Assembly: GCA_004348925.1 (NCBI GenBank)
Contig: RCMX01000002.1
Span: 106,046-170,045, forward strand
Reading direction: 5' to 3'
Length of the DNA: 64,000 nucleotides
Source of the DNA: Actinomycetota bacterium
GTDB taxonomy: Bacteria > Actinomycetota > Coriobacteriia > Anaerosomatales > Anaerosomataceae
The translations under genes and the position numbers were made by a program. The notes below the pieces were generated by a model that saw only the letters and a program-made list of their open reading frames with translations, searched no databases and was not told the origin of the DNA. Shown here piece by piece: positions 3,521 to 35,958 of this stretch. Every line of letters begins with the position of its first letter. The first letter of the stretch is position 1.

Positions 3521-4855
3521 ATGTTTGACCTGACCCGCAAGTACCGGCAGGGCACGCTCTTGTCGGTGCTCGTCATCTTCCTCCTGCTGCTGACCCTTGC
3601 GGCGCCGGCGTTCGCGATGAGCGGCGGCAAAGTCACCGTCGATCGAGACACCGGGGGACAGCTCACCCGGTTCACCTTCGCTGCAACCACCGGCGCTGAT
3701 GAGACCGTCTCCAGAATCGACTTCCTGTTCCCCGAGGGCTTCGAAGTCTCAAAGGCGCGCGTTGACGTCACCTTGCTCGAAGGCCTCAAGCGCATCGATG
3801 CGATCTATGAGCGGCGCATCGATCCGCAGACAGGGGTCGTGACGGTCTTGTTCGATCCTGCGGTACCACCCGGCAGCAATCTCTTCATGCAGATTCGCGA
3901 AGTCATGACTCCCATCGCAGGTGGTACCTACGTGCTGCCTGTCGAGTACCGCCTGCTCGGGGATTCCGCCGAGACAACGCCTCGCGCGATCGACGGACTC
4001 AGCTTCAAGTACAAGACCCCGCCGCGCGAAGAAGTGATCTCGCGCTGGCTCGATGGTCAGGGTTGGGTCACGACGTGGAACAACGTCAAGTTCCTCAACC
4101 TGTTTCTCAAGCCGCAGCAATTCGTCCGTGCGGTGCCGCTGCTCTTTGCGGGCTGGCTGATGTCGTTGGCGCTCGTTCTCAGCGCATTCCCGATATCGAT
4201 CATCGGCGGTCTGGGCACCGCGTTCATGAAGATGTCGAAGGTGCCGCCGGTCAGATGGCTCGCATCGATCTACATCAATGTCATCCGGGGAACACCGCTC
4301 TTCCTGCAGATATTCGTCGTCTTCATCGGCCTCAGGACGACCGGCCTGCGGTTCCCCGACTTCGTCTCGGCGATCGTGGTGCTTGCGTTCAACTCCTCGG
4401 CGTATCTTGCCGAGATATTCCGGGCTGGCATCCAGTCGATCTCGAAGGGCCAGTTCGAGGCCGCCTCATCGCTTGGCATGTCCTACTGGCAGGCGATGCG
4501 ATACGTGATCATCCCGCAGACGGTTCGTCGTGTTCTCCCGACGATGACCTCCGAGTTCATCCTGCTCTTCAAGGACACCGCTCTGTTCGCCGCAGTCGGG
4601 ATCTTCGAGCTCATGTTGCGCTCACAGAACTTCGTATCGCGGTCGGGGAACCTGACGGCGTACGTTGTCGCGGCGCTGTACTACCTGATCATCACCATCC
4701 CGCTTATCAACCTCGTGGGACGCCTTGAGGTCAAGCTCGCGCAGTCGGAGCATGGCGTTGCGGCGCCGACCATCAAACGGCGGGATAGGCGCACGCCGGC
4801 GCTGCTCTCGGGTCCGGATTTTGACACAACCGCCGCGAAGCATGAATCGAGGTGA
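3521..4855 (+). CDS. Amino-acid ABC transporter permease with extra N-terminal extracytoplasmic domain
   Basis: 444 aa from ATG 3521 (SD AGGGGC about 7 nt upstream; an in-frame ATG at 3506 has none). Residues about 10-33 form a signal or anchor helix ending APAFA; about 34-190 are a soluble, beta-rich domain ([19 protein letters not shown] onward) not normal for this family; about 200-430 are a HisM/GlnP-type permease with [18 protein letters not shown] and the EAA loop [18 protein letters not shown] that contacts the ATPase. Usual permeases are 220-250 aa. The stop overlaps the start region of the ATPase gene, so they are translated together. The added domain could be a docking or ligand-handling domain; that is inference. 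Confidence 0.88.
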
Positions 4856-6244: not shown

Positions 6245-6279
6245 GAAGGGGGCGCATGCGCCCCCTTCATAGTTTGTTA
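6245..6279 (+). terminator. Intrinsic terminator after hpf
   Basis: Perfect 24-nt palindrome (6245-6268, arms GAAGGGGGCGCA / TGCGCCCCCTTC) followed by the T-rich stretch ATAGTTTGTT. Confidence 0.85.
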
Positions 6280-6418: not shown

Positions 6419-7078
6419 GTGGAGAACACGGTTTCGTCGGCGATCATCGCTGAGATAGAGGAAGCTCTGTCCCAGGTCGCCGAGATCAAAGCCGCGCGGG
6501 TTGTCGCATCTTCGGATGGGTTCATCGAGGAGATACACGTCCTCGCCCTCCCCACCAAATCCCCGAAACAGCTCGTTCGCGACATCGAGTCGACCATCAT
6601 GGCAGCGTTCGGCGTTGCCATCGATCACAAGATCATCTCGATCGCACAGTTGGGACCCGACGTGCTCTCCAAACCGGAGACCAAGGTGCATGCGCGAGCG
6701 CGGATTCATGCGATTAATGCCGAGGTCACCGGCGTTCAGGCCAACAGCACCGTCACGCTCGAGCTTGAAGGCGACATTTACGTGGGGACGGCCTCTGGTC
6801 CTGCGAGCCAGACGGGTCGTCAGAGGCTGGTCGCGCTCGCGACACTCAATGCTGTCGAGCAGTACCTCCACGGGAGCATGAGCTTTGCACTTGAGGATGT
6901 GGAAATCGTTCGTCTCGGCAGGGAATCGGTCGCAGTCTCCTGCATCGTGCTCGTTACCTCATTGGGCGAGCAGGCGTTCTCTGGTTCAGCACTGGTTCGG
7001 CAGAACGAGAAGGACTCAATCGTCAGGGCGACGCTTGATGCGATCAACCGACGGATGGGTTTCTTGACAACCCCATAG
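6419..7078 (+). CDS. Conserved-looking protein of unknown function, first gene of accessory locus
   Basis: 219 aa, GTG start with SD AGGGGGT (6407-6412). Soluble, with no signal peptide or membrane segment. The N-terminal half begins with an amphipathic helix (SAIIAEIEEALSQVAEIKAA) followed by alternating strands and helices (RVVASSDGFIEEIHVLALP, DIESTIMAAFGVAIDHKIISIAQL). The second half has another alpha/beta unit (ARARIHAINAEVTGVQANST, RLVALATLNAVEQYL). No catalytic motif is visible. The repeated small alpha-beta units are compatible with a ligand-binding or regulatory domain. It precedes the peptide ORF and two HD-domain genes on the same strand and has its own promoter, so it may belong to their pathway. 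Confidence 0.75.
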   Translation: MENTVSSAIIAEIEEALSQVAEIKAARVVASSDGFIEEIHVLALPTKSPKQLVRDIESTIMAAFGVAIDHKIISIAQLGPDVLSKPETKVHARARIHAINAEVTGVQANSTVTLELEGDIYVGTASGPASQTGRQRLVALATLNAVEQYLHGSMSFALEDVEIVRLGRESVAVSCIVLVTSLGEQAFSGSALVRQNEKDSIVRATLDAINRRMGFLTTP

Positions 7079-7116
7079 CATCCAAGTTTGGGCCAACGCC
7101 GTGAGAAACCGGTTTG

Positions 7117-7212
7117 AACACTGTCAGCGAATCACGTAGCGGAGCGGACAGCGTTCTTCCATTACTAGCGGGATGGGAGAAGACCCGAAATCACCGTAAA
7201 GGGGGTCTTCTC
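7117..7212 (+). promoter_or_regulatory. Structured leader RNA before the small peptide ORF
   Basis: Two hairpins can be drawn. The first pairs 7117-7125 with 7147-7155 (9 bp, one mismatch). The second pairs GAGAAGACCC (7177-7186) perfectly with GGGTCTTCTC (7203-7212) across a 16-nt loop. The second stem contains or abuts the only G-rich SD (7201-7205) for the ATG at 7216, so folding would hide the ribosome site. No known riboswitch signature is recognised. Confidence 0.5.
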
Positions 7213-7215
7213 AAC

Positions 7216-7290
7216 ATGAAGAGAATCATTTTCCTGCTTAGCTCTCTCGCCGCGCTCGTTCTGGGCGGCGGCGCCTGGTTCCGCGCATAG
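7216..7290 (+). CDS. 24-aa hydrophobic peptide (putative)
   Basis: ATG 7216 to TAG 7288-7290. Starts MKRIIFLLSSLAALVLG and ends GGGAWFRA: a basic N-terminus, one hydrophobic segment long enough to cross or enter a membrane, then a short tail, like a signal-peptide-only or pheromone-precursor peptide. A G-rich SD lies 10-14 nt upstream, inside a hairpin. It sits between the 6419 gene and an HD-GYP gene, in an otherwise empty gap of 285 bp. Function unknown; a signalling peptide, membrane regulator or leader peptide are all possible. Chance occurrence cannot be excluded for so short an ORF. Confidence 0.5.
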   Translation: MKRIIFLLSSLAALVLGGGAWFRA

Positions 7291-7363
7291 CAGTACGGAA
7301 TGGCATGACGCGGCGTTGGCCCACCTGCTCTTCACACACCTACTCACAATATCGAAGGTGCTC

Positions 7364-8623
7364 ATGCGACTCAGGTTCTACTACTCAGCGACCGTTCTCG
7401 CCGCGGTTCTTGCGTTCGCGTGGTGGGCACAGGCATCGCCAGTGCGAGACTGGACTTCAGTGCTTGTGCTGGCCGCCTTTGCTTTTCTCGCGGAGACGCT
7501 AGCCTTTCAGTTGCCCTTGTCGGGATCGGTTTCGTTAGGTTTCGCGCTCGGCTTTGCTGCGCTCCTATACGATGGACCAGTTGCAGCGTCGTTCGTTGCA
7601 CTTGTGGGCAGCGTTTCTGTCCAAGATATTCGAGACCACCGTCCGATCGACGTTCAGCTGTTCAACAGTGCACAGCTAGTCATTTCGATTCTGTCCGCCT
7701 CGTGGGTGTATCAAGCATTGGGTGGTCGTCCTCTTGCCTGGATAGCTGCGGGATCTCCCGGCTCAGGTGCGCTTGGCCTGGGCGCAGCGATGGTCGCTGC
7801 AACAGCGTTCGTTGTCGTCAACATAGGTCTTGTGGGGGAAGCCCTGGCGCTGCGCACGCGCTTGTCTCTAGCGAGCGTGTTGCGTGAACAGAGCTTCGGG
7901 TCGTACTGGATTAGCTTCGTGATGCTGGCTCTCCTGGGCTACGTTCTCGCGAGAGTCGTTCATTCCGCGGGATGGGTCGGGGCGGTGCTTCTTGCTGCAC
8001 CCTTCGTGATTGCCCGAAAGACGTTCCGAGTCTATCTTGAACTGTCAGCGGCGTATGCGGATACCATTCGCTCTTTGGTCCAAGCGCTTGAGGCGAAGGA
8101 CCCATACACGAGGGGCCATTCGGAGCGCGTTGCAGCGTACTCCAAAGCGATGGCGCTGCGACTTGGCTATTCCGATGCGTCGGCGGAACGAGTCGAAATC
8201 GCGGCATTGCTCCACGACGTTGGCAAGGTCGGCATTCCGGAATCAACCCTTAGCAAGGCCGGAGCACTCACGCCAGTGGAGTACGAGCAGATTCGCCAGC
8301 ATCCAACAAAGGGCGAAAGCGTGCTACTGGAGGTTGAATTTCTCGCGGACATTGCGCCGATTGTGGCAGCGCACCATGAGCGTATGGACGGAACTGGCTA
8401 CCCGTGCGGGACTGATGGCGCGGACATTCCAGTTGAAGCGCGAATCCTGGCCGTGGCTGACGCGTTCGATGCGATGACGTCTTCTCGACCATACCGATCG
8501 GCGCTGAAAGCTGACTCGGCCGTCATCGAACTTCGCTCAGTCGCCGGGAGTCAGCTGGATGAGAAGGCGGTCGACGCGCTTCTGAGTCATCTCGCAGAGA
8601 GCGGGGCGTTAGAGAGCGTATGA
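7364..8623 (+). CDS. Membrane-bound HD-GYP domain protein (probable cyclic-di-GMP phosphodiesterase)
   Basis: 419 aa from ATG 7364 with SD AAGGTG; the frame opens upstream at TTG 7316 but lacks a good SD. Residues about 1-225 are six or more hydrophobic helices forming a MASE-like sensor. Residues about 236-415 are an HD-GYP domain: H252 in RGHSERV, H284-D285 in LLHDVGKVG, HHERMDGTGYP with GYP at 345-347, and VADAFDAMTSSRPYR. All canonical metal ligands seem present, so it should hydrolyse cyclic-di-GMP. Its stop overlaps the next start (ATGA), so the two HD genes are translationally coupled. GC3 is visibly lower than in housekeeping neighbours, which suggests acquisition. Confidence 0.88.
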   Translation: MRLRFYYSATVLAAVLAFAWWAQASPVRDWTSVLVLAAFAFLAETLAFQLPLSGSVSLGFALGFAALLYDGPVAASFVALVGSVSVQDIRDHRPIDVQLFNSAQLVISILSASWVYQALGGRPLAWIAAGSPGSGALGLGAAMVAATAFVVVNIGLVGEALALRTRLSLASVLREQSFGSYWISFVMLALLGYVLARVVHSAGWVGAVLLAAPFVIARKTFRVYLELSAAYADTIRSLVQALEAKDPYTRGHSERVAAYSKAMALRLGYSDASAERVEIAALLHDVGKVGIPESTLSKAGALTPVEYEQIRQHPTKGESVLLEVEFLADIAPIVAAHHERMDGTGYPCGTDGADIPVEARILAVADAFDAMTSSRPYRSALKADSAVIELRSVAGSQLDEKAVDALLSHLAESGALESV

Positions 8624-9876
8624 CGCGAGAACCAGATACCGCCTACTCATCTCGAGATTCTCGCGGCCTGTGGTGGGGTGTCGCGGCTGTGTCCACTGCA
8701 GTGATCTCCCTGGGCACGGCGATAGTCGTTTCGCATGGTGGTTGGAATCTTCCGTTGGCACTTGAGGTGGGCTTAGCGGCCGCGGTGACAGCCGCACTGG
8801 GGCTTCGACTGCCGCGCGGAGATGTCGTCAGGGTTGACGCGCTAGCCGCGAGTGCGGCCCTTGCGCTACTTGCCCCGGCAGCAGGCATGATCACGCTATT
8901 CTTCGGATGTCTGACGGGAATGTATCTCTCACGCCGAATGACCCGCTCATCGCCGGTCTCGGTGCTTGTCGACTCAAGTCGTCACGTGACCGCACTCGGT
9001 CTCGCATACTTGGTGAAGTACTCTGCGGTAACCCTGAGTCTCACCGAGGTCGCCTTGGCGGGGCTAGCGATCGCGGTCTATGCGTGCGTAGAGTTGTCCT
9101 CGCTTGCGGCCCAGCAGGCCTTCACCTCTGCGACTGGCTACTCGGTGGTTGCGGGCAGTATGTTCCGATCAGTCTGGCAGATATACCTTGGACAGGCGTG
9201 TCTGGGCATCGCTCTGGCAGTCGTGTATCCCTCGATGGGCGCCTGGGCAATACCTGTCATGACGATTCTCGGGGCTATCCTGCTGAATGGTTTCGCGCTC
9301 TATCTGCGGGTGAAGATTGCGTACCAGGAGACCATCGCTGCGTTGGCCAAGGTGAGCGAGCTTCACTTGGCGAATCGCCGTGGTCATTCTGAGCGCGTCG
9401 CCAACATGGCGGTATCGGTGGGACGACGGCTGGCAATGACGCCGCACAGTCTCGAGGCGCTGAACTACGCGGCCCTACTTCACGAGATTGGCTCGCTAGG
9501 GCGCGACTTCGAGGACCCAGCAGCGCATGAAGACGTTGCGGGTTGGGCGGAGAAGGGCGCAGAGATTCTTCGAGCCGTACCGTTCCTGGAAGATGCCGCT
9601 GAGATGGTGAGTTGTCAGCACGAAGTGGTGGGGGCAAGTCGTGATGAGCGAGCACGGGTATCTCAGATCGGCGGCGCGATCATTCGTGCATGTTGCGTTG
9701 TTGAGGATGAGTTACGCGGCGCCAGTGAGTCCGGCGAGTTGTCCGACAGTCCACGACTCGTAGATCGGGTGAATTCCGCGGAAGGCCGGATTCCAGAAGA
9801 GATTCTTCGGGCGGTAGTCCTTGTTGCGGAACAAATGCGAGTGTATGAGACTCGGGCAGTGCCTACTAAACGCTAG
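8620..9876 (+). CDS. Membrane protein with degenerate HD domain (likely non-catalytic)
   Basis: 418 aa, ATG 8620 overlapping the preceding stop. Same plan as its neighbour: about 225 residues of membrane helices followed by an HD-like domain (RRGHSERVANMAVSVGRRL, then AALLHEIGSLG). The defining HD pair is changed to H288-E289, and no GYP motif or following DAFDAM segment is present (only CQHEVVGAS where HHE would be). It is probably a duplicated HD-GYP protein turned into a sensor or partner subunit of the 7364 protein. Metal or ligand binding may persist without turnover. Confidence 0.8.
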   Translation: MTREPDTAYSSRDSRGLWWGVAAVSTAVISLGTAIVVSHGGWNLPLALEVGLAAAVTAALGLRLPRGDVVRVDALAASAALALLAPAAGMITLFFGCLTGMYLSRRMTRSSPVSVLVDSSRHVTALGLAYLVKYSAVTLSLTEVALAGLAIAVYACVELSSLAAQQAFTSATGYSVVAGSMFRSVWQIYLGQACLGIALAVVYPSMGAWAIPVMTILGAILLNGFALYLRVKIAYQETIAALAKVSELHLANRRGHSERVANMAVSVGRRLAMTPHSLEALNYAALLHEIGSLGRDFEDPAAHEDVAGWAEKGAEILRAVPFLEDAAEMVSCQHEVVGASRDERARVSQIGGAIIRACCVVEDELRGASESGELSDSPRLVDRVNSAEGRIPEEILRAVVLVAEQMRVYETRAVPTKR

Positions 9877-9947
9877 GACTCTGGTCTTGGCGAGAATTGT
9901 CGCGTGGAACTCATCAGCTTAGGCTTCCGGTTCGACTCCGGCTTCGC

Positions 9948-9953
9948 TACAAT
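9948..9953 (+). promoter_or_regulatory. Putative -10 element for the BTAD regulator
   Basis: TACAAT (9948-9953) matches the -10 consensus at 5 of 6 positions, 28 nt before the TTG start at 9982. The -35 is poor (TTCCGG, 9925-9930, 17 bp upstream), so activation by a factor is possible. Confidence 0.35.
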
Positions 9954-9981
9954 CGGCTAACCCTCAGGAGGATCTCCCAGT

Positions 9982-12900
9982 TTGGGGGAGGACATGGGAG
10001 AGACAAGGTCTGACGGCGTCCCCGATTGCGGATACGCCGTGATGAGACGACGACTAATTGAAGCCTTTCAGCGTACAGCTCCGGAGGTCACTGTCGTGGT
10101 CGCTCCCGGCGGCTACGGGAAGACTGTATTCGGCGCGCAGGTTGTACGCACAGTGGGAGAGTCGTTCTTGTGGATTTCCATGAGCGGGTGCTCGCCAACC
10201 GCGGGTGACTTTCCGTCTGCGGTTGCGGCGAGGCTACGACATGGAGTCACGGACAACAGTGAGCCTGGAGCGACGTCCCGGTATTCGACTTCGGGCTCTG
10301 GATGGGAGCGCCTGCGAGATGAGCTCGGGGCTCGTTCTGACTTACCCCTACTGGTAGTTCTCGATGGGTTGGACGTGCTCGATTCGGTCGCATCGCTTAA
10401 GCGACTGCGAGACTTGCTTAGGGACATGGGGGTGGCGAGTCCCAAGGTAGTGTGCACGTGCCGCACGATTTGCGAGCGACCTGGCGCCTCAGCTCACGAT
10501 ACGAGTTGCTGGACCGTCACGCGCAATGAGTTGGAGTTCACGGTCGAACAGACCAGGGACCTTGCGACACATGTCCTGCAAAGGGAGGTTGCTACCTCAG
10601 ATGCTGAGGCGCTTGCCCTGTCATCTGGGGGGCAACCAGCGCTGTTGGTCCTGCTGCTTCGCCATGCAATGTGTCATGACACCTCCATCTCGGCTGCGCT
10701 CAGTCGCGCTCCCAGAGATGTGGGCGACTATCTCCGATCAGAGTTCATGGCTCCCCGTGGGGCGGAAGCTAGACGCACACTTGGTGCGGCTGCCTTGCTC
10801 GGAAGCGGGTCGATTGGCGATCTGGTAAGAGTGACGGGGCTCAGCTCCGCAGACGTTTTGTCGTTGGCAACCGCTGTCCCACTGCTTCGACTCAAGAGCG
10901 ATGCCGTTGGTGTGCGGACTTTCGAGATACACGAGCTGGCGTCTGAGGTTTTTGGCGCCGCGCTGCTCGCGCGCGCATCCGATGTGGACTGCTCAACGAT
11001 CGACTCGATTATCAGGGAGCTTGAGGGGCGCGGAGAGTACCACAGACTATTCGGCATTCTCGTGCGAATGGAGGACACCGAGTACTTGGTCTCGCACGTG
11101 GAGCGTCTTGGAGGCCGGCTTCTTGAGGAGGCCTGCTTTGACTTGCTCGAGTCCTTACTTGTTCAGATTCCGGTCTGTGTTCAAGCTGGTAGTGTTCGCC
11201 TACTGCTGCTTGGGGCTATGCTACTGCGGCTGAAGGGGCGAGTTCCCGAAGCTCTCGAGCGCGCAGCCTCAGCACGGAGGTTGGCGATCGCGAGCAGTGA
11301 CGCGGTGCTGGAGCGAGACTGCCTAATCATTGAGGCTCGACTACGAATCGATGCCTGCCAGTTCCAATTCCTGGTTGAACCTCTTACGCGGGTGTTCGAG
11401 AGCGCTGTGACGACCGGAGACTATGACACCGCGGCCTTGCTCAGCGCCTACCTGGCGACCTCTCACGCTCAGCTCGGAGATGTCGTTACCGGCCGAGAAT
11501 ATGTTGAGCAATACAAGGCGCTCTATCAGCGCAACGGCGTCCGGGCCGCGACCCGAGCGCAATCGATTTCGATGATCCTTCTCGTCCTGGGCATCATCTG
11601 TGGTGATGTTGCTTCGGCTGCGGCGGTGCTGAAGGATGTCCGAGGTGACTCCGGCCAGCCGCTGGAGTTCAGGCTGCTGTGCGAGGGGAATCTGGCGGCC
11701 CTCCTTATGGAGATGGGGCGCATCCGCGACTCACTGCAGATTTCGCGTGCGGCACAGAGTCAAGCTCAGCGGAGGGGGTTTGCCTATCTAATTGACAGCT
11801 TCAGGGGTACGGATGCGGCGGCCTGTGCGGGTTTTGGCGAAGTCGCGGAGGCAGAGGCTCTCATGGCGTCTGCGATAGAACACCCTATCTGCCCTGAAGA
11901 CGCGTCAAATATTGCGGGCAATCGGATGTATCGATCGACCATTCGGCGTGCATCTGGCCTGCTCGACGAATCACTCGCGGACGCCGAACAAGCTCTGGTT
12001 GTCTTCTCGCGTGAAGCGGGAAGACTGCCCACAATGGCCTGTTTGGCGCGCTGTGAGGTGTCGGCTTCGATGTTGTCGCTTGGCGACGCACAGCGCGCTC
12101 ATGATCTAGCACTCGAATCGCGCTCCGAGGCCAATGCGTGGACGGCTGCGTACCACCTCCTCCGCGCCGATATGGTGTTGGCGGAGATCGAGCGGCAGCA
12201 GGGGGTAGTCGAGGATGCGGTCGCCCGAATCGCGCAGCACCGGGAGTACATTCTCACCGAAAGCGCCAACTGGCAGATCGCGATGTACGTTCGCGCGTTC
12301 CCGGGTCTGCTGGGCATATTCGCAAAGGCCGTGGGTGCAGAGGCGCTGCCGTCGCACCTGCTTCGGATGATCCTGCCCGACTACGCGCGACCGGCGCTCG
12401 AGGCATGCCACGACGACTTGCAGACCGCCGAGGTCGAGCGGCTGGCCGTGCGGCTTCTCGGCAAACGGGCTGCAGCCGTGTTCATGCGAGAGCGCGCCAG
12501 CGGTCCGAAGGCGGCGGTTCGCCTATTCGGCGGCATGCAAGTCGTGACGCCCACAGGCAGCGTCACCGATAAGGACTGGCGCAAGCGCAAAGCCCGCCTC
12601 CTCTTCGCGCTGCTCGTGCTCCGTCGTGGGCAAGATATGCCACGCGAGCAGATCTTCGAGCACTTCTGGCCCGAGATGGACGAGGAGCGCGCAAAGAGCA
12701 ACTTCTACGTCACGTGGAGCATCATGAAGCGCGCGCTGTCGGTAGGCACCGGTGGCAAGGGGCCCTGCCCATACGTCGAGCATGTCGGCGGGGTATGTCG
12801 CGTGGTCCCATCGTCGGTGTCATCTGACTTCGCAGAGTTCGAGGATGCCCTCATCGCGATGCGCAAGGCAGACCGCGCTGGCGATGCGTCACTTGCGTTG

Positions 12901-13293
12901 GCTGCGGCAGAGCGCATCGTCGAGCAATACCGGGGCGAGCTGCTGCCCGGGGAGCTCTACGACGAGTGGCTCGGTCCGATACGCGATCGGTGCCGACAGG
13001 ACTACGGCGATGCGATGCTACGTGCCTCGCAGCTCACGTATGAGGCGGGCGATCCCGAGAAGGCGCTCCACCTCGTTCGTGCCGGTCTGGGTCAGGATCC
13101 CTGGCGCGAGGATCTGTATCAGGCCGCGCTCCGCTACCTCATTCACACCGGGCAGCGAAGCGGCGCTATCGAGACATACGTCGCCTGCAAGAGTAAGCTT
13201 GCCGAGGATCTGGGCCTCGATCCTTCGACCGAGACACAGCGACTCTACGACCAGATCCTGGCCATGGAAGATCCACCTGGGGCGCCAGGGTAG
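9982..13293 (+). CDS. Giant STAND ATPase-TPR transcriptional regulator with C-terminal BTAD module
   Basis: 1103 aa. TTG 9982 has SD AGGAGGA (9966-9972) at 9 nt; ATG 9994 is an alternative. Residues 41-48 (APGGYGKT) are a MalT/AfsR-type P-loop, with VVLDGLDVLD as Walker B near 120, so it is a STAND signalling ATPase. About 350-800 are helical repeats of TPR/MalT type that in relatives bind inducers. About 844-935 (AVRLFGGMQVVTP... WRKRKARLLFALL... MPREQIFEHFWPE) is an OmpR-like winged helix, and about 940-1095 a bacterial transcriptional activation domain (LLPGELYDEWLGPIRDRC). In SARP proteins the DNA-binding part is N-terminal; here it is at the end. Codon use becomes high-GC3 near 12,100, inside the gene. 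Confidence 0.9.
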   Translation: MGEDMGETRSDGVPDCGYAVMRRRLIEAFQRTAPEVTVVVAPGGYGKTVFGAQVVRTVGESFLWISMSGCSPTAGDFPSAVAARLRHGVTDNSEPGATSRYSTSGSGWERLRDELGARSDLPLLVVLDGLDVLDSVASLKRLRDLLRDMGVASPKVVCTCRTICERPGASAHDTSCWTVTRNELEFTVEQTRDLATHVLQREVATSDAEALALSSGGQPALLVLLLRHAMCHDTSISAALSRAPRDVGDYLRSEFMAPRGAEARRTLGAAALLGSGSIGDLVRVTGLSSADVLSLATAVPLLRLKSDAVGVRTFEIHELASEVFGAALLARASDVDCSTIDSIIRELEGRGEYHRLFGILVRMEDTEYLVSHVERLGGRLLEEACFDLLESLLVQIPVCVQAGSVRLLLLGAMLLRLKGRVPEALERAASARRLAIASSDAVLERDCLIIEARLRIDACQFQFLVEPLTRVFESAVTTGDYDTAALLSAYLATSHAQLGDVVTGREYVEQYKALYQRNGVRAATRAQSISMILLVLGIICGDVASAAAVLKDVRGDSGQPLEFRLLCEGNLAALLMEMGRIRDSLQISRAAQSQAQRRGFAYLIDSFRGTDAAACAGFGEVAEAEALMASAIEHPICPEDASNIAGNRMYRSTIRRASGLLDESLADAEQALVVFSREAGRLPTMACLARCEVSASMLSLGDAQRAHDLALESRSEANAWTAAYHLLRADMVLAEIERQQGVVEDAVARIAQHREYILTESANWQIAMYVRAFPGLLGIFAKAVGAEALPSHLLRMILPDYARPALEACHDDLQTAEVERLAVRLLGKRAAAVFMRERASGPKAAVRLFGGMQVVTPTGSVTDKDWRKRKARLLFALLVLRRGQDMPREQIFEHFWPEMDEERAKSNFYVTWSIMKRALSVGTGGKGPCPYVEHVGGVCRVVPSSVSSDFAEFEDALIAMRKADRAGDASLALAAAERIVEQYRGELLPGELYDEWLGPIRDRCRQDYGDAMLRASQLTYEAGDPEKALHLVRAGLGQDPWREDLYQAALRYLIHTGQRSGAIETYVACKSKLAEDLGLDPSTETQRLYDQILAMEDPPGAPG

Positions 13294-13323: not shown

Positions 13324-13863
13324 GTGCTACTGCTTGACGGTATAGTGCTCGGGCTTGTTCTCGGCCTGCTCACGGGAGGGTCGTTTGCGCGTTTTGCCCG
13401 TGTCCACCTCAAGGGCGAGTGTCTGTTCATGCCGCTCCTGGCGTTCCAGCTCATCGTGCCGAGGCTTGCGACAGCACTCGGACTTGCGCCCGCTTTCGCG
13501 CTCGCGCTTTGGGTGACAGCGATGTGCGGTCTGATCGCGTTGGCGCTGTGGAACCGGCACTGGGCCGGCCTCTCGATCGCGGCGCTCGGTATCGCACTCA
13601 ATGTCGTGGTGATCGTGGCGAACGGCGCGATGCCGGTCTCGCTCGACGCGATCGCCCGGCTTGATCCCAAACTCGTGCCCAACTTCGACCTCGTGCACGA
13701 GCAGCTTACCGATGAGACGCGCTTACAGGGGCTTGCGGACGTCATCGCAGTCCCCGGTCCGAAGTGGCACCGAGGAGTCGCGAGTCCGGGTGACCTCCTC
13801 CTCTCGGCCGGTGCAGGAATCTTCGTCTTTTCTGCCATGCGCAAGAAATCCGAGGAAGGTTAG
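13324..13863 (+). CDS. DUF5317-like membrane protein
   Basis: 179 aa, GTG 13324 with SD AGGGAG (13313-13318). Starts with a membrane helix ([18 protein letters not shown]), continues with hydrophobic segments and [20 protein letters not shown], and ends [19 protein letters not shown]. This layout and the closing GD-L--AGAGIF segment are typical of DUF5317 proteins of Actinobacteria and Firmicutes, whose function is unknown. It follows the BTAD gene by 30 bp on the same strand, but its codon use is like the host genes. Confidence 0.7.
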
Positions 13864-28882: not shown

Positions 28883-29233
28883 GGGGGCGACTGGATTCGA
28901 CATGATAGGTTCGAGGGTAGCAGCAGGTCGAGGTCTCCTCGCCTCGTTAAACAGGGGTAAAGACGCTCAAGCGTCGACAATAATTACGCTCTCGCTGCTT
29001 AATTAAGTAGCGACGTCGCCCGGTGAGAGTCCCCGTCACCGGTCCCGACGTCACTCAGGGGACATGCGCGACGGACGTAGGCTGTATGCCGTTATGCGCG
29101 AGAATGAACGGCCAGGGCACGGGCACGCGGGTCACCGAGTGTCGCCCGTTCTGACGATAATCGGTGTCTGAGCCTGGAGATACTACCCGGGGGTCTATTG
29201 TGGACCGGAGTTCGATTCTCCGCGCCTCCACCA
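28883..29233 (+). ncRNA. ssrA: Transfer-messenger RNA (tmRNA)
   Basis: The 5' end GGGGGCGACTGGATTCGAC is the hallmark tmRNA start. The first seven bases pair with CGCCTCC near the 3' end (one G-U), followed by discriminator A and encoded CCA (to 29233). The T-arm is CGGAG-TTCGATT-CTCCG. The tag frame ends D-N-N-Y-A-L-A-A before TAA at 29000-29002; the resume codon is not obvious, since the usual GCN/GGN is not seen just upstream. Rescues stalled ribosomes with SmpB and tags peptides for ClpXP (encoded at 53.9-55.7 kb). Confidence 0.96.
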
Positions 29234-29242
29234 CACGTTTGC

Positions 29243-29276
29243 AGGAGTCTGCCGATCGCCGGCAGGCTCCTGTTCT
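29243..29276 (+). terminator. Terminator after tmRNA
   Basis: 12-bp stem AGGAGTCTGCCG / CGGCAGGCTCCT (one G-U pair), loop ATCGC, followed by GTTCTC. Confidence 0.75.
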
Positions 29277-29297
29277 CATAGGAGGGCGGCGAGCTGC

Positions 29298-29326
29298 TTT
29301 ACAGGCATTACCTGCGCTGGTATGTT
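29298..29326 (+). promoter_or_regulatory. Promoter of first multihaem cytochrome
   Basis: TTTACA (29298-29303), 17-bp spacer, TATGTT (29321-29326); about 33-nt leader to ATG 29366. Confidence 0.55.
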
Positions 29327-29365
29327 CTGCGCAGTCGCACCATGGGGTCTTCCAGGGGAGTCGCA

Positions 29366-30478
29366 ATGAGGGTCGGACTGACGCGCACGATCGCCCTGCT
29401 CACGATCACGATGGCGTTCCTGGCCTCGGCGTCAGTTGCTCTCGGCTGGAATGAGACGGGCATGGTTCCCAAGGGCGGATCGAACGGCTACGGCGATTGC
29501 GCCTACTGTCACACTCCGGGATGGACCAACACGGGCTACGGGCCGCACCGTGGCTACTCCAACGGCACGCGCGTGTGCGAGCATTGCCACACCCTGCACG
29601 ATTCGGGATCCGCCACGCAGCTTCTGATCGGTGCAACGATCCAGGCCACGTGTCAGACCTGTCACGATGGCAGCGGCGGGAGGGGCGTCTACGGAGCGAT
29701 TGCGGCGAGGGGACTGGCGGTCGGCGCGCGGCATCGCACCGAGGCCACGTCGGTCGTTCCCGGCGGCAACGCTGGCGACGGTGGTAGTGCTGTGATGGCG
29801 TTTGCCGGGACGAGCGGGACGCTCACCTGCAGCGATTGCCATACGCCGCACGGGCAGAATGCGGTGACACCGTTTCTAGGCGAGCGCATGCGCGTCTACA
29901 TGGGGGGCTACCCCTCGTACGTCTCGAATAGACTGCTCAAGCAGCGCCCTGCGAACGTTGCGACCGCTGTTGCCGAATACGGTTCAGACTGGTGCATGGC
30001 GTGTCATCAAGGTCGCGCTTCCGGGGTGGTCGGCGGTGCGATGAATCATCCTGTCGAATCGAAGCTGACGACGGCATCTCCGTACAACTACCGCCAGCTC
30101 GGCATCATCACGGGATCCGGCTCTGTTGCGACGACCGCGACGACCATCGGATTCGCGGGAAACAACTATGGCTACTCCTACAACACCGGCTACCTAATGC
30201 CGTACCCACGGGTGGGCACGCAAGCCGGACACCTGCCCATCTGCCAGCAGTGCCATGAGGACACACGTTTCGTGGGCACGCTCACAGAGGATGGCACGCA
30301 GGCGATTCCGAGCAGGACGACCATCCTTGCGGGAGATGGCTGGCAGTCAGTCGAGAACCCGCGGTTCCAGAACTTCCCGCACGAAACGCAGGGCTACCGG
30401 ATGCTGGTCGAGTCGACCACGACGGCGTTCATGGACGACCTCTGCCTGAACTGCCATCCGAAGCCCGCACTTCCGTAG
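29366..30478 (+). CDS. Secreted seven-haem c-type cytochrome
   Basis: 370 aa from ATG 29366 with SD AGGGGAG; ATG 29342 is in frame without SD. Signal peptide of about 28 residues (TIALLTITMAFLASASVALG). Seven CxxCH haem motifs in order: CAYCH, CEHCH, CQTCH, CSDCH, CMACH, CQQCH, CLNCH, with the doublecys-like TPHG, HQGR and EDTR contexts. The C-terminal block RFQNFPHETQGYRMLVEST is shared with the cytochrome at 33475. Likely an extracytoplasmic electron carrier; donor and acceptor unknown. No haem-lyase genes are in the window. Confidence 0.92.
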   Translation: MRVGLTRTIALLTITMAFLASASVALGWNETGMVPKGGSNGYGDCAYCHTPGWTNTGYGPHRGYSNGTRVCEHCHTLHDSGSATQLLIGATIQATCQTCHDGSGGRGVYGAIAARGLAVGARHRTEATSVVPGGNAGDGGSAVMAFAGTSGTLTCSDCHTPHGQNAVTPFLGERMRVYMGGYPSYVSNRLLKQRPANVATAVAEYGSDWCMACHQGRASGVVGGAMNHPVESKLTTASPYNYRQLGIITGSGSVATTATTIGFAGNNYGYSYNTGYLMPYPRVGTQAGHLPICQQCHEDTRFVGTLTEDGTQAIPSRTTILAGDGWQSVENPRFQNFPHETQGYRMLVESTTTAFMDDLCLNCHPKPALP

Positions 30479-30501
30479 CGCGCAGGCAGCTGTCGGGACG
30501 A

Positions 30502-30861
30502 CTACTCTTCTGTAGGATCGACTCTGCGACGAGCGACCTTGCGCCTGGCGTTCACGTGCTTGGCCATGAGCGTCCGCTCCTTCGCCGAACGGGACTTCCT
30601 GGTCGGAACGCGCTCTGTCGCCACGTACGATTGCTCGGCGAAGCGCTTCCGGAGTCGCGCGAGCGCTGCCTTCTTGTTGAGGTACTGGCTCCGCTCGCGC
30701 CGCGCCACCACGACGATACCGCTTGGCCGATGCTTCAGGCGCACGGCGCTGTCGGTCGTGTTCACGCCTTGCCCGCCAGGGCCTGTGGCGCGAAACGTCG
30801 TGACGTCGCACTCCGCCAGTAGCGCGTCATCGTCCTCTGGCATCTTGTAGTCGCGGTCCAT
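30502..30861 (-). CDS. Release-factor-like GGQ domain protein (alternative ribosome rescue)
   Basis: 119 aa from ATG 30861, SD GGAGGT on the minus strand. Only the peptidyl-tRNA hydrolysis domain of class I release factors is present: ATGPGGQGVNTTDSAVRLKHRP with GGQ at residues 29-31. It ends in a basic tail (AKHVNARRKVARRR) as in ArfB/YaeJ and mitochondrial relatives that enter the empty mRNA channel of stalled ribosomes. No stop-codon-reading domain. It lies 1.3 kb from ssrA, suggesting a tmRNA-independent backup. Convergent with the cytochrome gene. Confidence 0.82.
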   Translation of the reverse strand: MDRDYKMPEDDDALLAECDVTTFRATGPGGQGVNTTDSAVRLKHRPSGIVVVARRERSQYLNKKAALARLRKRFAEQSYVATERVPTRKSRSAKERTLMAKHVNARRKVARRRVDPTEE

Positions 30862-30966
30862 CGAAACCTCCGAAGCCATTCTAGCGCGCAACGGTCGCGT
30901 GACGGACGCCGCGGTTCGGGTGACCTACCCGCCCGCCCGGGTTACGGTTGGGGTCGGAGGTGCTCG

Positions 30967-31635
30967 ATGTCTCAAGGTCCCCACCCTCAGCCCGAACTCA
31001 GGACGATCGTGTGGCGCGCGCTCGGTGCGCTCGCGCTCATCCAGCTTGCGCTCGCCGCGATCTTTCGCGGCCTGCTCCTCGTCGCCCACGGCACCGGCAG
31101 CGTCTTCCGCTTCCAGCTCGTGAACGGCGCCAGCTTCTTGGCCCTCGGCATCCTGCTGCTCATCGTCTTTCGCCCCACGCTATCCGCGCTCGGCCTGTCT
31201 CTTGCCGGCAAGCCCATGCATACGTGGGCTCTGTCGTTTCTCGGCGTCGCTCTCGTTCTGACGCTGGTGATCACCTCGCGATCGTTCGGCATCATGCCTT
31301 TCGTCCTCAATCTGACGTTCGGACTTGCGGTGCCTGCGTTCGAGGAGCTGCTCTTTCGCGGCTGGCTCTTCGGTAAGCTGCGGCCCATCTCGGCCGGGCC
31401 CCGTGCCGCGTGGGTGACGATTTCGACGGGCGCGGTACTGTTCGGGCTGTGGCACCTGGGCTATGCCCCCACGCTGCTACAGCATCCGGCGCATCCTGAG
31501 ATAGCGTCGTTGCTGGCATTCAAGGTCGGCTACGGGACCGTCCTCGGTCTTGCCACCGGCTGGCTACGCGAGCGCACCGGTGGTACGTACGCGCCTTTCG
31601 TGCTGCACGCGGTCGCGAACATCTTCGCGCCATAG
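30967..31635 (+). CDS. CPBP family intramembrane metalloprotease
   Basis: 222 aa, ATG 30967, SD GGAGGTG at 5 nt. Six to seven hydrophobic segments. Abi/CAAX protease motifs: EELLFRGWLFGKL (EExxxR), FGLWHLGYAP (FxxxH) and the C-terminal HAVANI. These membrane-embedded glutamate-type proteases act in prenyl-protein processing, bacteriocin immunity or stress. The substrate here is unknown, as no bacteriocin gene is nearby. Confidence 0.9.
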   Translation: MSQGPHPQPELRTIVWRALGALALIQLALAAIFRGLLLVAHGTGSVFRFQLVNGASFLALGILLLIVFRPTLSALGLSLAGKPMHTWALSFLGVALVLTLVITSRSFGIMPFVLNLTFGLAVPAFEELLFRGWLFGKLRPISAGPRAAWVTISTGAVLFGLWHLGYAPTLLQHPAHPEIASLLAFKVGYGTVLGLATGWLRERTGGTYAPFVLHAVANIFAP

Positions 31636-32527: not shown

Positions 32528-33364
32528 ATGACACAGCCGCATCTGCCACGTCGAACCCCCTTCGCGTTCGGGCTCACCTTCGTCCCGCCCGGGGCGCTCG
32601 GCGGCCTCGTCACGGGCACCTCCGAGCCCGCACAGTCGGTACTTCGAGCATGCCAGGAGCTTCGTGCGGCATTCGCGTTCGTTCCGTCCTGGGAACCCTG
32701 GGCCGAGCAGACCCTCGACGTCCTCGTGAGTGCGGGCGTTAGCGCTTTCTGGGCCGTTCAGGGACCGTTGTGGCCCGTCCTGCGTGCCCGGGGCATCGTG
32801 GAGGGGCTGCGTGAGACGCTCACGGATCCTTCGGGCATGTTGCAGCGCATCGAATCCGGCCTGGACGCGGTCGTCGCCCGCGCCAGGCATGGCCTCGAAT
32901 CCGGCGCCGCGGGAATCGTGCTTGCCGAGGACCTGGCGGGTACCGAGGGTCCGCTGGTGGCACCTGACTTCGCGATCGAGCAGTTGCTGCCGGCGTACAC
33001 TGCGGTCGTTCGAGTCACGAGCGAGTTCTCTTCTCCTGCGATTCTCCATTCCGACGGTGACACGCGCTGGTTGCTGGGAGCGGTCAAGCGCGCCGGCTTC
33101 ACGGCGGTCCATGCCGGGGGAGGACTGGATTTCGATGGTTTCGAGCGGTTGTTCTGGGCCGCCAGGGCGAATGACCTTGCCGTTATCGGCGGTCTGCAGA
33201 GTACGGCTCTGTCGAACGGGCGCGCGCAGGCAGAGGTGCTGGGAAGTCGGGCGGGTTTGCTTGCCCGGGCAGGGGGCCTCCTGCTTGGCGACGATGGCGG
33301 AATCACCGAGCCGCAGCAGATTGCCCTGCTCGCCGAAGCGCTGGTCGCCGCTCGCACGATTTGA
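32528..33364 (+). CDS. Short uroporphyrinogen decarboxylase-superfamily protein
   Basis: 278 aa, ATG 32528. Weak but ordered resemblance to the URO-D/methyltransferase superfamily: a glycine/alanine-rich helix, AAGIVLAEDLAGTEGPLVAPDFAIEQLLPAY (matching the D-G--GP--SP------PY block), PAILHSDGDTRWLLGAVKRAGFTAVHAG (HSDG block) and a final GLLLGDDGGI. It is about 60 residues shorter than HemE and lacks the N-terminal arginine-rich FAGRYLPE-like substrate motif. A corrinoid-linked methyl transfer or unknown function is more likely than haem synthesis. Confidence 0.65.
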   Translation: MTQPHLPRRTPFAFGLTFVPPGALGGLVTGTSEPAQSVLRACQELRAAFAFVPSWEPWAEQTLDVLVSAGVSAFWAVQGPLWPVLRARGIVEGLRETLTDPSGMLQRIESGLDAVVARARHGLESGAAGIVLAEDLAGTEGPLVAPDFAIEQLLPAYTAVVRVTSEFSSPAILHSDGDTRWLLGAVKRAGFTAVHAGGGLDFDGFERLFWAARANDLAVIGGLQSTALSNGRAQAEVLGSRAGLLARAGGLLLGDDGGITEPQQIALLAEALVAARTI

Positions 33365-33474
33365 TCTCTTCGGTCGCCGGTCGCCCTGCCTGCAGTTTCC
33401 AGGTACTATCTTGAATCAGAAGATGCGAACGCTGAACTACGATGCTTCGCTGCACGACCGGGGGAGGGGTACGT

Positions 33475-34589
33475 TTGCGGGTAGCAGGTCGCGTTATCGT
33501 GCTTGTGTCGATTATCGTGTTGGCTGGCTTCGCTCTCTGCGAGGCCGCCCTGGGGTTCTCCGAGACACCGTATGCGGGTCGTGCCGATTATGGAGACACC
33601 TGCTGGTACAGCAACTGTCACGCTGTCTCGAATGTGGATGGGACGGGGCCGCACGGCAACTACAGCGCGACCTCCCGGGTCTGTTCGCTCTGTCATACCC
33701 TGCATGATGCATCCGACTCCGGCATCAAACTACTGCCGCAAGCGACGGTAACAGCCACCTGCCTGATGTGTCACGACGGCACGGGCTCTCCGGGAAGCGG
33801 CGTCTATGGCGCCATTGTCGGAAGGGTCTGACAGTGGGCGCGGAGCACTCCATAAACGCGACCAACGTGGTGCCCGGGGGTGATCCGAGCGGGGGGAGCG
33901 CGACAGTAGCGTTCTCCGAGTCCGGACTCCTGGGGTGCGGGGATTGCCACAGCGTGCACGGCAACAACACGGTAGTTCGATTCGCGGGAGAACGGGCAAG
34001 GAACTCGTCGAACGACACCTTCCGCAACTACGAGCTGCGGAGTACGCGGCTGCTGAAGACGCGTCCGGGAGCGGCAACGACCTCGGTTGCCGAGTACGGC
34101 TCAGACTGGTGTCTGTCATGCCACCGGGGTCGCGCGTCCGGGTCGGGGGTGGTTCACAATCATCCGGTGGAATCGTCCCTCACGACAGTAGCGCCCTACG
34201 TGTATGACAGGGTGCCCCGTATGTACTCGAATTCCTCGACGACACAGGTCCTGGGCACGATGGGGCGCCTCAGTCCCGATCCTGCTACCGGACTCACGCG
34301 GGTCAGGCACAATCGAGCGTTCGTCATGCCGTGGCCGCGAACGTCGCTTCAGGCAGGCCACTACCCGATCTGCATGCAGTGCCATGAGGACACACGGTTC
34401 GTCGGTGAGGTCGGTGCCGTAGCGAGCTCCACCGTATCGGCGGCGAACGGTACGGCCGTTGCCGATAATCCCAGGTTCCAGAACTTCCCACACGAAACAC
34501 TCGGCTATCGGATGCTGGTCGAATCGACCACGACCGCATTCACCGATGACCTTTGCCAGAACTGTCACTCAGTGGCGCAGTTGCCGTAG
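33475..34589 (+). pseudogene. Seven-haem c-type cytochrome disrupted by a one-base frameshift
   Basis: A paralogue of the cytochrome at 29366. Frame 1 (TTG 33475 with SD GGGGGAGGGG, or ATG 33442 without one) ends at TGA 33829-33831 after GVYGAIVGRV. The rest continues one frame back to 34589 (GLTVGAEHSINATNVVPGGD...). The paralogue reads AGG-GGA-CTG where this gene has AGG-GTC-TGA, so one G is missing in the run at 33824-33826. Rejoined, the protein is about 371 aa, as long as the paralogue (370). Haem motifs: one CX4CH (CWYSNCH), then CSLCH, CLMCH, CGDCH, CLSCH, CMQCH, CQNCH. Could be a real mutation, phase variation or a sequencing error. Confidence 0.82.
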
Positions 34590-34617
34590 CGGTCGGGCCC
34601 CGAACCTCCACGTCGTC

Positions 34618-34661
34618 CACGACAGAGCGAGGCGCCCCGGGGGGCGCCTCGCTCTGTCGTG
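34618..34661. terminator. Perfect 44-nt palindromic bidirectional terminator
   Basis: Two perfect 21-nt arms (34618-34638 and 34641-34661) around GG, between the convergent cytochrome and DsrK-like genes. Strong enough to stop transcription from both sides, although U-runs are short. Confidence 0.7.
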
Positions 34662-34674
34662 CTGTCTGTACGTG

Positions 34675-35958
34675 CTAGACGTGGGTCGGCTTGGTCCCCT
34701 TGAGCGGCATGGCTGCCACGACGAGGTCGATGACCTGCCAGACCTGAAGTCCGAGCTCGTGGACCTCGTTGAGCTCTTCGATCTGGAGGCGGCAGTTCTC
34801 GCACGGGCAGGCCAGCACTGTGGCGCCGCTCGCCTTGAGCTGCTCGACCTTCTTGATCCCGGACGCGAGTCGAACGTCCTTGAACTCCTCCATCGCCACG
34901 ATCCCGCCACCGCCACCGCAGCACCACTGCTCTGCGCGGTTCGGCGTCAGGTCGACGAAGTTGTCGGTCACTGCCTTCACGATGTCGCGCGGCTCCTCGA
35001 ACTTGCCGCCGTTGCGACCGAGCTGGCACGGGTCGTGGTAGGTGACCTTGCCCTCGATGAGACCCTTGTCCACCGTGATGCGACCTGACTTGATGTACTG
35101 GTCAACCTTCTCGAGGATGTGGCTGATCTTGAAGGGCATCGGTTCTTTGGACCACGCCTCGTAGAAGAACTCCGCGACGCGGTACGCATGACCGCACTCC
35201 GGAACCACGATCTCCTTCACGCCGAGGCGCTTGGCCTCGTCGATATAGCGCTTGGTGATGAGCCGCGCCTTCTCGACGTCGCCGTAGAAGAAGCCGTAGT
35301 TGGCCGCCTCGAACATCGAGATCGTCCAGTTCTCGCCAGCCTCTTCGAAGATGACGGCGGCCGGACGGATCGAGTGCGCGCCGGCGAGCGCTACGTACAG
35401 GATGTCGGCGCCCTCCTTGTTCACCGGTACCTGTGAGTTCGGGTTGCCGGTGATGGCGCGCACCTCTTCCTGGATGTCCTCGAAGCCGCTCACCATGACG
35501 TCGTTGAACATCTCGGCGTTGTCGCCTTTGAAGATCGCGGCGTCAGCGAGCTGGCCGAGCATCTCGTTGCCTTTGCCCGCGGCGATGAGGATCGCTTTGG
35601 CTACCGAGAGGATCCAGGCGGTGTCGATCGAGAACGGGCAGTAGTACATGCAGCGACGGCAGCCGGTGCAGGCGTAGGTAGAGTCGTACAGCTCGTCGAG
35701 AAGGTTCTCGTCGGGGTCGCGTGCCTCGTAGAGCGCTGGCACGAACTCGCCGGTCTTCGTGAAGTACTTCTTGTAGATCTGACGGATGAGCTCTGCACGA
35801 CGGGCGGGGAGGTACTTGAAATCCCCCGTACCCACGTACTGGTGGCACGCGTCCTTGCAGATCGCGCAGCGCGCACAGATATCCAGGTACTGCTTGAGCT
35901 GGCGGTTCATCTTCTTGTCGATGACCCCTGTGAGGGTCGTGAGCTGCGTTGAGTCCAT
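34675..35958 (-). CDS. DsrK/HdrD-like iron-sulfur protein
   Basis: 427 aa, ATG 35958. N-terminal half has two ferredoxin-type clusters: CARCAICKDACH (residues about 28-39) and CTGCRRCMYYCPF (about 96-108). The C-terminal half has two CCG-domain sites: VPECGHAYR, and HDPCQLGRNGG...QWCCGGGGG...CPCENC. This matches the catalytic subunit of DsrMK, TmcB and HdrD families, which exchange electrons with disulfide or persulfide substrates on the cytoplasmic face. The cytochrome b partner is encoded 2 bp upstream. In DsrMK it passes quinol electrons to a DsrC-type trisulfide; no dsrC or dsrAB is seen in this window. Confidence 0.88.
   Translation of the reverse strand: MDSTQLTTLTGVIDKKMNRQLKQYLDICARCAICKDACHQYVGTGDFKYLPARRAELIRQIYKKYFTKTGEFVPALYEARDPDENLLDELYDSTYACTGCRRCMYYCPFSIDTAWILSVAKAILIAAGKGNEMLGQLADAAIFKGDNAEMFNDVMVSGFEDIQEEVRAITGNPNSQVPVNKEGADILYVALAGAHSIRPAAVIFEEAGENWTISMFEAANYGFFYGDVEKARLITKRYIDEAKRLGVKEIVVPECGHAYRVAEFFYEAWSKEPMPFKISHILEKVDQYIKSGRITVDKGLIEGKVTYHDPCQLGRNGGKFEEPRDIVKAVTDNFVDLTPNRAEQWCCGGGGGIVAMEEFKDVRLASGIKKVEQLKASGATVLACPCENCRLQIEELNEVHELGLQVWQVIDLVVAAMPLKGTKPTHV

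Follow-up and report, generated by a model that had tools for sequence, protein, structure and literature searches.

The DNA analysed here, referred to as the window, is a stretch of 64,000 nucleotides (G000:C3:106046-170045) from the 2.25 Mb genome of a subsurface actinobacterium of the order Anaerosomatales. On its + strand, between the terminator of hpf and secA, lies a block encoding a 219-amino-acid protein (P219), a structured leader RNA with a 24-amino-acid micropeptide, an HD-GYP protein, a second HD protein (HDx), a STAND-TPR-BTAD regulator and a DUF5317 membrane protein. We propose, with rather more confidence than doubt, that this locus is a polymorphic secreted-tetrapeptide (pherotype) system whose receptor is the HD-GYP protein. 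The proposal comes from sequence comparison: the tail of the micropeptide and the membrane domain of the HD-GYP protein co-vary while their flanks are conserved, a likeness to polymorphic pheromone loci in working rather than in descent. A first-pass annotation of this DNA had named five of these elements, from P219 to the regulator, and all five are present at the place and strand it gave, downstream of an hpf terminator (6245-6268) that was confirmed as real. It had taken the DUF5317 gene as the outer border; we count this gene in the block because in most relatives it sits between HDx and the BTAD gene. Conservation was followed in 61 genomes of the order, 47 of them good. The elements are as follows.

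6419-7078, + strand: P219, a conserved protein of 219 amino acids without a Pfam family, present in 43 of the 47 good genomes
7216-7290, + strand: micropeptide MKRIIFLLSSLAALVLGGGAWFRA, from the ATG at 7216 through the stop codon; codons 1-20 are signal-peptide-like and codons 21-24 encode the tail WFRA
7364-8623, + strand: HD-GYP protein; residues 1-207 form the membrane domain and residues 225-419 the HD-GYP phosphodiesterase
8620-9876, + strand: HDx, a paralogous membrane HD protein with a degenerate active site (GYP and one metal ligand lost order-wide)
9982-13293, + strand: STAND-TPR-BTAD regulator, supported by Pfam matches, segment identities and an identity profile
13324-13863, + strand: DUF5317 membrane protein (PF17248, E 1.2e-23), syntenic in most loci
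7276-12100, + strand: tract hypervariable against the sister species G004, starting at codon 21 of the micropeptide

The neighbourhood, suspected earlier to be a unit, is not scattered in relatives. Oriented loci of the order share one arrangement, hpf-P219-leader/peptide-HD-GYP-HDx-(DUF5317 and BTAD in either order)-secA, the regulator is present in 44 of the 47 good genomes, and conservation of the block is far above chance.

Micropeptides were sought 5' of homologous HD-GYP genes, and the open reading frame is kept in nearly every locus of the order that reaches the leader. The consensus over 45 loci is MKRIxxLLxSLAALVLxGGA followed by a variable tail, with G19 and A20 invariant in all 45 and third codon positions free. 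The ratio of nonsynonymous to synonymous polymorphism (pN/pS) is 0.32 for codons 2-20 and 0.88 for the tail; we read the former as under purifying selection and the latter as not, and the micropeptide as real, coding and conserved. Tails follow the pattern x-[FWYLM]-[KR]-[hydrophobic] and usually have four residues, sometimes five or six. Lysine or arginine occupies position 23 in 41 of 45 loci, so that the chemistry of the tail is retained while its identity changes. The MKR start, hydrophobic core and G/S-G-A end have the form of a signal peptide, with a putative signal-peptidase site directly before the tetrapeptide. The genome contains three signal-peptidase matches. A genome search found no further copies of the leader, which is thus single-copy here. 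Some other genomes carry two copies of the module with unlike tails: AWKM and MARL in G053 (L124 and L139, on C12 and C30), which additionally carries extra regulator-like genes, and VWKV and YFKL in G007 (L159 and L160).

The clearest view of the polymorphism comes from sister genomes. G000 and its sister G004 are about 90% identical in DNA, 95% in SecA and 99% in P219, which is thus not polymorphic. In three sister pairs (G000/G004, G006/G016 and G005/G015) DNA identity is 95-100% through the leader and codons 1-20, falls to about 40-55% exactly from codon 21, and stays low on through the HD-GYP membrane domain. Aligned base by base, the leader and codons 1-20 of G000 and G004 differ at a handful of positions, and the tails are WFRA and MYRV. 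Within the 64-kb window, 7.3-12.1 kb is the sole long tract with syntenic genes but without a nucleotide match to G004. Positions 29000-31000 and 33000-35000 are also poorly covered by G004; these are probably insertions or deletions, the first adjoining the tmRNA gene (28883-29233).

The G005/G015 pair narrows the exchange further. Its membrane domains are 60% identical, against 98% for the HD part, 91-94% for HDx, 86-92% for the regulator and 97-98% for the flanks, and identity is back to about 93% shortly past +700, where the membrane domain ends. By sequence identity, this swap is confined to the tail and the membrane domain. Pairs with equal or similar tails retain the membrane domain even where the remainder has diverged: it is 85% identical in G010/G018 (tails SFRW and SLRW) against 54% for HDx and 31% for STAND, and 77% in G013/G053b (both tails AWKM) against 65% for the HD part. 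The break at codon 21 and the co-variation together show the pattern of pherotype polymorphism in sequence, as in ComX/ComP.

Partial Mantel tests connected tail and membrane domain at r 0.32-0.34 when P219 was controlled for, and at r 0.27 (p 0.0005) when P219 and the HD part were both controlled for. Once the membrane domain was controlled for, the HD part, HDx, STAND and TPR segments lost their significance, and the tail showed no independent co-variation with the STAND/TPR part. For SecA and the BTAD DNA-binding part the Mantel tests gave no correlation with the tail. Where nearest relatives conflicted, the tail sided with the membrane-domain relative 21:7, whereas the same contrast was nearer even for the HD part (15:12), HDx (16:10) and STAND (14:11). 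In the membrane-domain tree G000 groups with other WFRA genomes, all three WFRA genomes of the genus standing together, and the two six-residue tails (G016 and G020) also fall together. This tree rejects the groupings G000+G004 (p-AU 0.0002) and G006+G016 (p-AU 0.0004), both of which are sisters in the flank tree. These comparisons favour the membrane domain of the HD-GYP protein over the STAND-TPR protein as the tail's partner.

The HD-GYP protein looks suited to such a role. As first annotated, its active site is intact: the metal and catalytic residues and the GYP motif are complete, with H252, H284, D285, K288, H313, H337, H338, D366, G345 and Y346 invariant in 53 loci, and PDB profile and fold matches are to HD-GYP structures. 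The start codon first given, TTG 7316, is likely to be wrong; ATG 7364 is preferred, as positions 7311-7323 are taken up by the 3' arm of a conserved stem in the RNA. A structure was modelled with AlphaFold2 on 46 natural sequences (pLDDT 91.5). Residues 225-419 of the model match HD-GYP structures (9rbz, Z 23.2), and residues 1-207 match ECF S components or CbiM/NikM exclusively (VIA-align table), at Z 10-12.6, although Z values of helical proteins are to be read with care. The best match of the membrane domain is RibU (5kbw; Z 12.6, root-mean-square deviation (rmsd) 3.4 over 161 aligned residues), followed by ThiT, BioY, FolT, PanT and CbiM/NikM at Z 10-12.5. The membrane domain is thus predicted to have the ECF S-component fold. 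S components have a pocket within the membrane for small ligands, and the modelled S-component-like pocket is a plausible site for a tetrapeptide.

HDx and the HD-GYP protein align with E 7e-18. In line with its earlier description as a coupled protein with a ruined site, its reading frame overlaps that of the HD-GYP gene by 4 bases and has HE in place of HD and QH in place of HH. The metal ligand lost across the order is D366; HH and K are mostly lost as well, and HDx lacks a complete HD-GYP active site throughout the order. It is less decayed in other families. HDx may serve as a dimer partner. The genome has 11 GGDEF matches and, at E 0.001, no PilZ effector.

In the mechanism that we propose, the structured RNA would gate translation of a 24-amino-acid precursor made up of a bare Sec signal peptide (residues 1-20) and a tail, usually of four residues. 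Cleavage behind Ala20 by signal peptidase would set the tetrapeptide, here WFRA, free outside the cell, to be read by the neighbouring HD-GYP protein through its membrane domain, the part resembling ECF S components. The tetrapeptide would change the cyclic-dinucleotide (most likely cyclic-di-GMP) phosphodiesterase activity of this protein, probably in complex with the pseudo-enzyme HDx, and in the Anaerosomatales the result would be handed to the STAND-TPR-BTAD regulator. Replacement of alleles of tail and receptor domain would create groups hearing only their own kind.

Several points weigh against this mechanism. Export, cleavage, binding, the direction of signalling, cyclic-di-GMP as substrate and the link to the regulator are steps that we infer. 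Of the earlier suggestion that a signal is sensed at the membrane and passed to the regulator, the first half agrees with the tracking of the membrane domain by the tail, and the route to the regulator is among these inferred steps. The regulator, too, is hypervariable in its N-terminal half, independently of the tail (in G010/G018, STAND is 31% identical and the membrane domain 85%), which the model leaves unexplained. A mature product of four residues is shorter than any pheromone known to us, and there are other families in which the tail shows little variation. The Mantel tests and nearest-neighbour counts leave relatedness partly in. Tail and membrane domain are also physically linked, which could account for some of the correlation; the spacer separating them follows the tail too, and linkage alone predicts decay with distance. 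That the G005/G015 swap is so restricted, and that other pairs retain the membrane domain, are nevertheless arguments for function.

Alternatively, the peptide might never be cleaved or released and might act in the membrane as a small subunit or regulator of the HD-GYP protein, its tail co-evolving with the membrane domain by contact within one cell. The hydrophobic 24-mer, the adjoining partner gene and the co-variation of tail and membrane domain would all fit, but we regard this as unlikely: contact would not explain why alleles are replaced between sisters that are nearly identical, variation begins right behind the invariant GGA, a fitting signal-peptidase site, and the predicted fold of the partner has a ligand pocket.

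We strongly doubt that the locus is a recombination hotspot, or that selection acts on the STAND regulator or HDx downstream, with tail and membrane domain hitch-hiking. The entire 7276-12100 tract differs between G000 and G004, the spacer is replaced as well, and the STAND half varies on its own. By Pfam the regulator has a BTAD domain (E 1.3e-20), a MalT-like match (E 1e-7) and an AAA_16 match (E 1e-4) that is below the family's cut-off. Its N-terminal ~690 residues are hypervariable and its DNA-binding/BTAD part is conserved; STAND and the first TPR part (9982-12060) vary among close relatives independently of the tail, G010 and G018 being 31% and 24% identical in these two segments against 80% in the DNA-binding part. 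Against hitch-hiking, the G005/G015 exchange took tail and membrane domain only, all downstream sequence staying 86-98% identical, and the signal in the tail is carried by the membrane domain, not by other segments.

The micropeptide lies behind a folded leader, as annotated, and the leader folds better than shuffled sequences (z -3.3). Part of that description has to be revised: the outermost stem closes only after the peptide stop codon, so that the RNA fold extends beyond the reading frame. Its elements, compared in 33 loci, are as follows.

7089-7101, + strand: 5' arm of P1, TGGGCCAACGCCG, pairing with 7311-7323; 6 of 13 pairs changed on both sides
7116-7156, + strand: stem P2, GAAC.CTGT...ACAG.GTTC; 99.1% of cells paired, mostly invariant with little covariation
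7159-7176, + strand: stem-loop P3 with conserved loop TAGCGG; 99.4% paired, one pair changed on both sides
7177-7212, + strand: hairpin P4, GAGAAGAC/GTCTTCTC; 100% paired, kept in outgroups with changed sequence
7311-7323, + strand: 3' arm of P1, CGGCGTTGGCCCA, downstream of the peptide stop and kept inside an otherwise variable tract

Over the P1-P4 structure 97.5% of cells are paired, against 39-53% for slid versions, and eight pairs have changes on both sides, six of them in P1. No Rfam 15 family, and hence no known riboswitch or other RNA, matches the leader at E <= 1. The 3' arm of P4 lies between the ribosome-binding site (7200-7205) and the start codon, and an extended P3 can compete with P4; this arrangement suggests that the leader gates translation. 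The closure of P1 after the stop codon and the position of P4 at the ribosome-binding site would also suit a leader peptide whose translation, not its product, controls the downstream operon through the RNA. We consider this highly improbable, since the amino-acid sequence is under purifying selection with third positions free, no run of control codons is present and the tail variation is tied to a protein domain; a role for the RNA besides the peptide is nevertheless likely. An intercellular or type I toxin, with the HD proteins as immunity and the polymorphism as an arms race, is scarcely credible: a short hydrophobic and possibly membrane-active peptide behind a structured leader has the general form of type I toxins, but the peptide occurs at one and the same place in nearly all genomes of the order and as a single copy here, the tail has only four residues, and the partner keeps a complete phosphodiesterase site.

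The P219 of the window falls into no family of Pfam or NCBIfam, and no PDB entry is convincingly related to it. The separate promoter once assigned to it is not above chance (one match against 1.2 expected in shuffles). Its model combines an N part like the C-terminal domain of CDF proteins with a C part like the LeuA regulatory domain (3f6h, Z 10.7), and P219 is perhaps a metabolic input. Two assignments were rejected: ZT_dimer by sequence, with only stray matches in 7 of 44 members, and a dsRNA-binding fold (Foldseek TM-score ~0.2, rmsd ~20).

The module extends beyond the order. An RNA model (R1) run on 396 sampled genomes of the phylum found the leader in 26, of which weak matches may be chance, and 20 of the matching loci were fetched. 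Most have the peptide, HD-GYP and HDx genes beside the leader and P219 nearby, on the same strand or divergent; the peptide-HD-GYP module thus occurs with the same RNA in other actinobacterial classes. Among these 20, G356 has no clear peptide, that of G303 is atypical, and no HD gene was matched in G548. In 10 of 18 loci of other families P1 exceeds every shuffle, with up to 20 pairs and differing sequence; in the remaining loci it is not clearly above shuffles. Outside the order, in loci that could be read, the core of RNA, peptide, HD-GYP, HDx and P219 stands without the regulator, which is an order-level addition. A 1099-amino-acid protein downstream in G303, a candidate regulator by length, was rejected as a cyclase-AAA-TPR protein, not BTAD. 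P219 remains linked to the module even after rearrangement; in L211, L213, L218 and L220 it is divergent from the leader-peptide-HD-GYP unit yet within ~1.5 kb. In L217 (G405, 3647-3980) it looks eroded, with a split match and an internal part missing, and the RNA, peptide and HD genes remain. L112, labelled Bacillota (SKS3.bin89), has hpf followed by a 46% identical P219, and its contig ends before the peptide position. Within the window, a raiA RNA (1295-1531, + strand; Rfam RF03072, 160.6 bits, E 2.6e-40) lies ~4 kb upstream of hpf and precedes an operon for an amino-acid ABC importer.

No description of this module, and nothing of relevance on DUF5317, on pherotypes involving HD-GYP, on the Anaerosomatales or on phosphodiesterases as peptide receptors, was found in the literature searched, a search that left out subscription papers and preprints. 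We give an even chance to its being an undescribed and, within Actinomycetota, ancient class of bacterial cell-cell communication: a tetrapeptide is released from a bare signal peptide and bound by an S-component-fold receptor fused directly to a cyclic-di-GMP phosphodiesterase, and the reading frame lies within a new structured regulatory RNA. If so, a large and mostly uncultured group of bacteria would have a cell-cell language, and peptides a further type of membrane receptor; a pheromone would be coupled to the breakdown of cyclic-di-GMP within a single protein, and some of the shortest gene-encoded signals known would be included, as well as a new structured RNA family with a reading frame inside. 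Natural allele swaps such as G005/G015 make receptor specificity directly testable with synthetic peptides of four residues.

As proposed, the locus would work like a pherotype system; by the features tested, it belongs to no known family. Agr-type systems pair a polymorphic short autoinducing peptide with a co-varying membrane receptor, as proposed here, but the block is without an AgrB-like protease or AgrC kinase and the tail shows no sign of a cyclisation residue. The ECF S components RibU, ThiT and BioY share the predicted fold of the sensor domain, a likeness of predicted structure only; here the domain is fused to HD-GYP and no transporter function is suggested. Like the RRNPPA systems (Rap/Rgg/PlcR; PMC9765709), the locus has a short, putatively exported precursor processed to a few residues and a TPR regulator nearby, but its tail tracks the membrane HD-GYP domain rather than the TPR protein, and the regulator is of the STAND-BTAD type. 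In DSF/RpfC-RpfG signalling (PMC13220807) a cell-cell signal is likewise tied to an HD-GYP phosphodiesterase; there the signal is a fatty acid and RpfG, a response regulator, receives its input from the RpfC kinase, whereas this HD-GYP protein has its own membrane sensor. The ComQXPA system of Bacillus (PMC4008528, PMC4408185) differs in its components, since among the block genes read and scanned there is no prenyl transferase, kinase or response regulator, the signal here lies behind a signal peptide, and the receptor is an HD-GYP protein. In ComQXPA the most variable region is the ComX C terminus, and the membrane domain at the N terminus of ComP is also markedly variable (PMC4008528). Though the proteins are unrelated, in both systems the genes for signal and receptor are neighbours on the same strand, the signal C terminus and the N-terminal membrane domain of the receptor are most variable, the cytoplasmic part is conserved and, as proposed here, groups are private.

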